Assembly (NCBI GenBank): GCA_014237145.1
Contig: JAAXOC010000111.1
Span: 1-41,126, forward strand
From: ANME-2 cluster archaeon
Lineage (GTDB): Archaea > Halobacteriota > Methanosarcinia > Methanosarcinales > Methanocomedenaceae
Length of the DNA: 41,126 bases
Reading direction: 5' to 3'
The notes beneath the pieces are model-generated. The model saw nothing but the letters and a program-made list of their open reading frames with translations. It had not been told where the DNA came from and ran no database searches. Shown piece by piece: positions 37,673 through 41,010 of the stretch (position 1 is the first letter of the stretch; each line of letters opens with the position of its first letter). Position numbers and translations under genes: made by a program.

Positions 37673-38821
37673 TCAGGTGTTAAGGTATTCCTCAATCCTG
37701 TCCAGACCTTCCCTGATGTTCTCAAGGCTGTTGGCATATGAGAACCGCAAGTAGCCTTCTGCCCCCTCCCCGAAGTCAATGCCCGGAGCCACCGCCACCC
37801 CTGCTTCTTCAAGTATACGGCGGCTGAGTTCAAGTGAGTCCTCGCTGAACTCCTTTGCATTGGCAAGCACATAAAACGCCCCGGTAGGTTCACTGCCGAT
37901 CCCGAACCCCATACCTTTTAGCCGCTGCAGGATGTACTTCCTGCGTTTATCGTACGTTGCCACCATCTCCTGTACATAGTCCTGCGGTCCTTTTAGTGCC
38001 GCAATGCCTGCATGCTGGACAAAGCTGTTGGCACAGATAAAGAAGTTCTGCTGTATCTTCTGCAGGGCCCTGATGTATTCGGGCGGTGCGATAAGGTAGC
38101 CAAGACGCCACCCTGTCATGGCAAAGAGTTTGGAAAAACCGTTCAGCACAAAGGCGTTGTCTGTGTATTCAAGTATGGAATGGTCTTTGCCATTGTAGAT
38201 CAGGCCCTGGTATATCTCATCAGATATTACAGGAATATCCCCTGCGACTTCGGCCAGGCCCTGCATGGTTTTTGGGTACATGACGTGCCCGGTGGGGTTG
38301 GCAGGGGAATTTATCAATAGTGCCTTGGTCCGGGGGGTTATCTTCATGGCTACTGTATCGGGTGTCAGGCTGAACCCTTCGTCTTCCTTTGTATATACAA
38401 AAACAGGCCTGCCGTCCATGTATTCTACAAAATTTGGATACGCTGAATAATAGGGGTTGGACATCACGACCTCATCTTCTTTATCCAGCAGGCCCATGAA
38501 CAGCATCAACATGGCCGGGCTGGTGCCTGATGTGATGATGACCTGCCCGCTACTCAAGTTTAGGTTGAACTTCCGGTTGTAGTATCCGGCAACCGATTCC
38601 CTGAGTTTGAGCAGTCCCATGCTGTGGGTGTACCTGGTCTCGCCTGCCTTTATTGCCTCATAGGCAGCTTCGCTGATATGGGAAGCTGTGGGGAAGTTGG
38701 GTATACCTACTTCGAGATGGACGATATCCCTTCCTGCGCGTTCGAGTTCCTCTGCCCTTTCCAGTACTTCCATTACATAGAATGGCGGTATCCTTGCAGC
38801 TTTTTTTGAGAACATATCCAT
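37673..38821 (-). CDS. PLP-dependent aminotransferase, class I/II
   Basis: A 382-residue fold-type I aminotransferase. IPPFYVMEVLERAEELERAG and IVHLEVGIPNFPTASHISEA form the start of the family domain. GETRYTHSMGLLKLRESVAG and ITSGTSPAMLMLFMGLLD are cofactor-loop regions; LLINSPANPTGHVMYPKTM has the conserved Asn; VISDEIYQGLIYNG carries the pyridine-binding Asp and Tyr. FVLNGFSKLFAMTGWRLGYL contains the Schiff-base Lys and the phosphate-binding Arg. GYLRFSYANSLENI has the carboxylate-binding Arg. Substrate probably aspartate, alanine or an aromatic amino acid; not resolved. Confidence 0.9.
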   Translation of the reverse strand: MDMFSKKAARIPPFYVMEVLERAEELERAGRDIVHLEVGIPNFPTASHISEAAYEAIKAGETRYTHSMGLLKLRESVAGYYNRKFNLNLSSGQVIITSGTSPAMLMLFMGLLDKEDEVVMSNPYYSAYPNFVEYMDGRPVFVYTKEDEGFSLTPDTVAMKITPRTKALLINSPANPTGHVMYPKTMQGLAEVAGDIPVISDEIYQGLIYNGKDHSILEYTDNAFVLNGFSKLFAMTGWRLGYLIAPPEYIRALQKIQQNFFICANSFVQHAGIAALKGPQDYVQEMVATYDKRRKYILQRLKGMGFGIGSEPTGAFYVLANAKEFSEDSLELSRRILEEAGVAVAPGIDFGEGAEGYLRFSYANSLENIREGLDRIEEYLNT

Positions 38822-40315: not shown

Positions 40316-41010
40316 CTATGCTGCAGGATGCTTAATTTTTATGATATATTTTAAATCAACTTTTAAATCAAAATCTTCTAATTTGAAATCCTTGTTTACA
40401 TTATCACAAAAAATAACATTGTCCCCTGATAATGATTTGTAGAGTTCTTTATCAAAAGATTTTCTTACTTTATTATATATATCATTTGAGATTGTCGGAA
40501 AAGCCTAATTTTCGAATATTTCAGCTTTACTGTATAAACTTGACTGGGCGCAGCATAGTGATTTATTTTTAACAATATTTCTCTAAGTTTTAATTTAGGC
40601 GCTTTTCAGGTACTTTTCCGACAATCTCCATTTCCCATTAAAAATAAGAATTTTGATTTAGGATTATTAATAAACCGTTCTATTACCACTGATTCAAGAA
40701 AAAAATCAATGAATAAATGCTCTGCTACCCTACTCTTAAATACTTTTGTTGAAGGTGCAGACCATGCTGTTCTTTCATGCCATCTATCATCATGATAAGT
40801 GGCAATTCCATGCAAGGTTGCTTGTGTAACCATTATTTTTGACTCTTTAGAAACGGCTTTTTTTCCTTCAATTATATTAAATAAATCATGAAAATCTGTT
40901 TTATATATGCTTCCATTTGACCTATATTTCCATTCTTTTTTAAATTGTTTATACATCCCACCTTTATATATATTATGTATATATATTTCTCTAAGCTCAT
41001 TTACATCCAA
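40316..41010 (-). pseudogene. Unknown gene interrupted by a 141-bp MITE
   Basis: As it stands, the frame from TTG 41010 ends inside the inserted element at 40606. Removing the element and one copy of the CATTT target duplication (146 bp) restores one frame of 183 codons, joining FLFLMGN directly to DIYNKVRKSFDKELYK and running to TAG at 40316-40318. The protein is charged and soluble, with TQATLHGIATYHDDRWHERT and STKVFKSRVAEHLFIDFFLE. An upstream in-frame stretch from 41067 (GITAANGIALNLKKKNIDLL) suggests the true start is lost or outside this frame. I do not recognise the family. The region is AT-rich and accessory. Confidence 0.7.
40488..40628. mobile_element. 141-bp MITE with perfect 16-bp terminal inverted repeats
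   Basis: GAGATTGTCGGAAAAG at 40488-40503 is the exact reverse complement of CTTTTCCGACAATCTC at 40613-40628. The element is flanked by the direct repeat CATTT (40483-40487 and 40629-40633), a 5-bp target-site duplication. It encodes nothing. The reading frame of the host gene is restored in phase when it is removed, proving it is an insertion. A source transposase (perhaps IS1634/IS4- or IS5-like) is not in the window. Confidence 0.9.

Follow-up and report, generated by a model that had tools for sequence, protein, structure and literature searches.

The window, a stretch of 41,126 nucleotides from contig C111 of an ANME-2 cluster archaeon, carries near its right-hand end a minus-strand gene that is interrupted by a 141-bp element (Table 1). 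Positions 40483-40633 read, in order, CATTT, GAGATTGTCGGAAAAG, the interior of the element, CTTTTCCGACAATCTC and CATTT; the two inverted ends match at 16/16 positions, with 109 nt separating the arms. The initial annotation had described a non-coding element of 141 bp whose 16-bp inverted ends are perfect and which is flanked by a CATTT target duplication, and this description is exact to the base. The element has a G+C content of 34% and no ORF of note, its longest frames being short and none of them a transposase ORF. Just one perfect 16-bp inverted pair with arms 50-400 nt apart exists in the window; the average over 100 simulated windows is 0.02 per window. Being short (under about 600 bp), devoid of a transposase ORF, bounded by terminal inverted repeats and a target-site duplication, multicopy and dispersed, and absent with base-exact precision from the orthologous site of a relative (G004), the element has the features of a MITE, a non-autonomous DDE element.

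Table 1. Features at the right-hand end of the window.
Feature	Start	End	Strand	Remark
3' part of interrupted gene	40316	40487	-	stop codon 40316-40318
Target-site duplication copy 1, CATTT	40483	40487	.	single copy at G004 empty site
MITE, 141 bp (non-autonomous element)	40488	40628	.	12 full-length copies (81-100% identical) inside contigs of own genome; also present in relatives
Left terminal inverted repeat, GAGATTGTCGGAAAAG	40488	40503	+	identical to the leftmost 16 bp of IS1182-family elements
Right terminal inverted repeat, GAGATTGTCGGAAAAG read from right end	40613	40628	-	
Target-site duplication copy 2, CATTT	40629	40633	.	
Middle part of interrupted gene (starts near codon 99 of 298 in the orthologue, stops at the MITE)	40634	41065	-	DNA 97% identical to intact G004 orthologue
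TAATA (TATTA on gene strand), target duplication of second insertion	41061	41065	.	other copy near C42 end
Terminal part of second repeated mobile element, with inverted end CCTTACTTTGAAAGAT	41066	41126	.	cut by contig end

Removal of 146 bp (the element plus one CATTT) joins the two minus-strand frames, which then run stop-free down to the stop codon of the gene. The same gene is an intact ORF of 298 aa in G004, a genome of the same genus, where it adjoins the same AAA_14/DUF4143 ATPase gene as in the window; aligned to the window, the G004 site has a single AAATG and no other gap there. The claim that the insertion can be reversed exactly to give an open frame is thereby confirmed on a natural empty site. 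G093 and G121, which belong to a different family of the order, have homologues that are 52-53% identical over nearly the whole length, contain no insert and continue across the site with the residues ...MGNDAF... in one and ...MGNDAY... in the other. The search for an uninterrupted copy of the restored protein thus returned three, and a view of the element as true coding sequence finds no counterpart in any of them. The empty site in G004 together with the uninterrupted homologues indicates that the insertion is derived in the lineage of the window.

The restored gene had been given as 183 codons; this count is correct from a TTG at 41010, but the true frame extends upstream to 41065, and the gene is one of about 298 codons that was broken twice rather than once. 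Apart from the two insertions it has neither a frameshift nor a stop, and its window-borne part differs from G004 with a dN of 0.027 and a dS of 0.065. Its designation as an inactivated gene is supported by an insertion within a gene that a close relative keeps intact, from which we infer that the product is lost; the assembly is fragmented and intact alleles may exist in the population. The insertion had also been called recent, which is appropriate in that it is younger than the split from the G004 lineage and the frames on either side have stayed open, but the inserted copy differs by 4-6% from the full-length copies closest to it. The product gave no Pfam hit above cut-off and no match in NCBIfam or PADLOC, and neither a solved structure nor a plasmid relative was found for it; the sole viral match, of 27 residues, is too weak for use. 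A resemblance to uracil-DNA glycosylases was considered and found no support. Aminotransferase gene remnants flank the broken gene on opposite sides in G004 and in the window (L043:651-992, window 37673-38821 and L133:1279-1474), pointing to a rearrangement or duplication around it.

In the window, the match to the G004 gene begins at about codon 99. Codons 1-99 are located at the end of contig C42 (86364-86720), where they are 96.6% identical to G004. At the C42 junction the gene breaks off at TTCTATTA and is followed by CCTGACTTTGAAAGAT, and the other half in the window starts with ATCTTTCAAAGTAAGG joined to TATTACCGCC; together the junctions show a 16-bp inverted end and a 5-bp TATTA duplication, of which G004 has one copy. 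The final 61 bases of the window have five other matches in the own genome, several of them near contig starts. Complete copies of this second element, whose family ends are CCTKACTTTGAAAGAT, lie in C2 (636 bp, L134:1423-2058, one of the five matches, with no exact duplication and no clear long ORF) and in C77 (437 bp, with an exact 5-bp duplication); no partner IS was found for the family. Gene halves at two contig ends, TATTA on both sides and a repeated element end make it most likely that C42 and C111 adjoin, with the second element between them; the gene was hit twice, by the MITE and by this element. The second insertion would explain the contig break and link C42 to C111.

The own genome (G000) is a fragmented assembly of 118 contigs and 2.97 Mb. 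A search of 60 genomes (the own genome, 16 others of the same ANME-2 family and 43 from the rest of the order) yielded 15 matches in the own genome: 12 full-length copies within contigs, the window copy included, and three incomplete matches, one being a near-complete copy at the C1 contig edge and the other two both parts of a single copy with an internal deletion. Of the 16 other genomes of the ANME-2 family, 12 have matches, with all four genera represented; the condition named in the initial annotation as refuting, a lack of other copies, does not hold, the element being multicopy in its own genome and present in relatives. The 43 genomes sampled from the rest of the order gave a single 21-base match and nothing else. 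No MITE was found in the plasmids and phages searched, and no paired MITE ends in the viral contigs searched, in which 25 single exact ends look like chance occurrences. The window copy is 94% identical to its nearest full-length copies in the own genome and 96% identical to one in G002. The copies in C11 and C31 share the same 141 bp throughout and sit at different sites with different duplications, and two copies in C73 are likewise identical over 141 bp at different sites; identical copies at different sites indicate recent movement of the family. C21, C77 and relatives also hold a 130-bp sister family that has the same ends. The internally deleted copy in C117 (7304-7396; L012:1362-1454) is 93 bp long, contains a short filler and lies 46 bp away from a full-length copy; it has the variant GTATAAAC in common with the window copy and is therefore probably its sibling.

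Target duplications were counted over 35 complete elements of 125-143 bp, the 130-bp sister family included. An exact duplication flanks 20 of them (18 of 5 bp and two of 6 bp), compared with 0.09 expected from pairing the left and right flanks of different copies, and duplications of other lengths occur little above chance.

A full-length IS with the same ends, another target of the proposed searches, was found in relatives, with only pieces in the own genome. The complete IS in Candidatus Argoarchaeum ethanivorans (L095:2796-4675) is 1880 bp long, is flanked by a TAGGT duplication and contains an ORF of about 505 codons, the product of which carries the Pfam domains DUF772 and DDE_Tnp_1_6 and matches NF033551 (IS1182, NCBIfam) with 314.9 bits against a cut-off of 270. 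Its left end is the same 16 bp as the MITE end. Elements in other genomes (L102 and L103) have the same ends and exact ATCTT and ATTAT duplications, respectively, and full-length IS1182 elements combining this 16-bp left end with a 5-bp duplication are present in several families of the order. The right ends of the IS are of the variant GAGATTGTCGGATAACCCC, whereas the MITE has the left-type sequence at both of its ends. At one end of the L103 element, the 20 bases GAGATTGTCGGAAAAGTACC are in common with the right end of the MITE. The window MITE is like the Argoarchaeum IS in its terminal 16 bp at the left end and its 5-bp duplication, and differs from it in lacking the transposase ORF and any similarity beyond the ends. 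The sequence shared by MITE and IS being the terminal 16-20 bp only, their pairing rests on the ends and the duplication length.

In the own genome, IS-type left ends (GAGATTGTCGGAAAAGTCC or close variants) occur in C44, C13 and C99, and also in relatives, and accompany a transposase fragment bearing a DUF772 domain. No intact IS was found among the 118 contigs. What they do hold is a decayed copy (C44) and two ends, one in C13 and one at the C99 contig edge, so that an active partner would be either missing from the assembly or located elsewhere. Repeats of IS length often break in fragmented assemblies, and the missing intact IS bears on present activity, not on the kind of element. The ends shared with an IS1182-family IS whose transposase scores above the NF033551 cut-off place the element among the IS1182-partnered MITEs, and it was most likely moved, in trans, by an IS1182-family transposase.

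It is very probable, in our assessment, that a transposase-less 141-bp MITE moved by an IS1182-family transposase broke the gene, and that a second element broke it again. We propose that an IS1182-family DDE transposase acts in trans on the MITE by recognizing the shared 16-bp end GAGATTGTCGGAAAAG, and that its cut, staggered by 5 bp, would lead to the duplication of 5 bp of target. The MITE would have entered a CATTT in an accessory gene whose intact orthologue has 298 codons, thereby breaking it, and another element, unrelated and flanked by a 5-bp duplication of TATTA, would have broken the same gene about 430 bp upstream, where the contig ends. That a different, undetected IS with ends merely resembling those of IS1182 mobilizes the MITE is improbable: such a reading could draw on the 16-20 terminal bases that are all the MITE shares with known IS copies and on an own genome without an assembled full-length IS1182, but the same 16-bp left end goes together with a 5-bp duplication in full-length IS1182 elements across several families, decayed copies of the IS reside in the same genome, and sharing of the ends only is typical for archaeal MITEs (PMC3852290). 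Hardly any credence is due to a non-mobile structured non-coding repeat or regulatory cassette belonging to the gene or co-transcribed with it, since the single strand does fold better than shuffles (z = -4.3) but the two inverted ends make up most of that fold, insertion is required by the exact target duplications, by copies that are identical although their sites are unrelated and by an empty orthologous site, and the empty site in G004 rules out a structured-RNA or regulatory role. The reading as a MITE insertion is supported overall, on evidence stronger than that originally claimed.

Two MITEs partnered with ISMac2, an IS1182-family element, have been described in Methanosarcina acetivorans (PMC3852290, Table 4): one of 160 bp with 14 copies, 26-bp ends and a 4-bp duplication, and one of 169 bp with 7 copies, 25-bp ends and a 0-bp duplication; archaeal MITEs and their IS generally share ends only, under 20 nt (PMC3852290). 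The window MITE resembles the M. acetivorans pair in archaeal order, IS1182-family partner, size and copy number, and is set apart from their published description by its 16-bp ends and 5-bp duplication. All observations made on the window MITE agree with the pattern described there. The family is thus new, as the initial annotation had it, and the kind, IS1182-partnered MITEs, is already known from M. acetivorans (PMC3852290). A partial literature search found no papers on MITEs of ANME-2 archaea. IS1272 of Staphylococcus, which has an IS1182-family transposase and 16-bp inverted ends like the present family, is reported to replace inverted-repeat targets without target duplication (PMC5678879), whereas the family partnered with the window MITE makes ordinary 5-bp duplications, suggesting that the IS1182 family is mixed and that the present branch uses the ordinary mode.

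We lean towards the view that this undescribed IS1182-MITE family (141 and 130 bp) is a main one among the small mobile elements in this ANME-2 family and is still moving, and that its IS1182 branch duplicates 5 bp in the ordinary way, in contrast to IS1272, which replaces its target. If so, sites of MITE presence or absence could act as strain markers. With ANME archaea being uncultured, sequence is what their genome dynamics have to be deduced from; the present case offers a base-exact insertion record that comes with a relative carrying the empty site, the name of the transposase family and statistics on target duplications, and in which one accessory gene is seen hit twice by mobile elements. 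Most MITE copies examined restore no long frame on removal, and gene disruption by the MITE is therefore the exception rather than the rule. Removal of a 130-bp copy in C77 (L051:421-550), flanked by a CGGTT duplication, opens a 131-codon frame across the site, and this copy possibly interrupts another gene.
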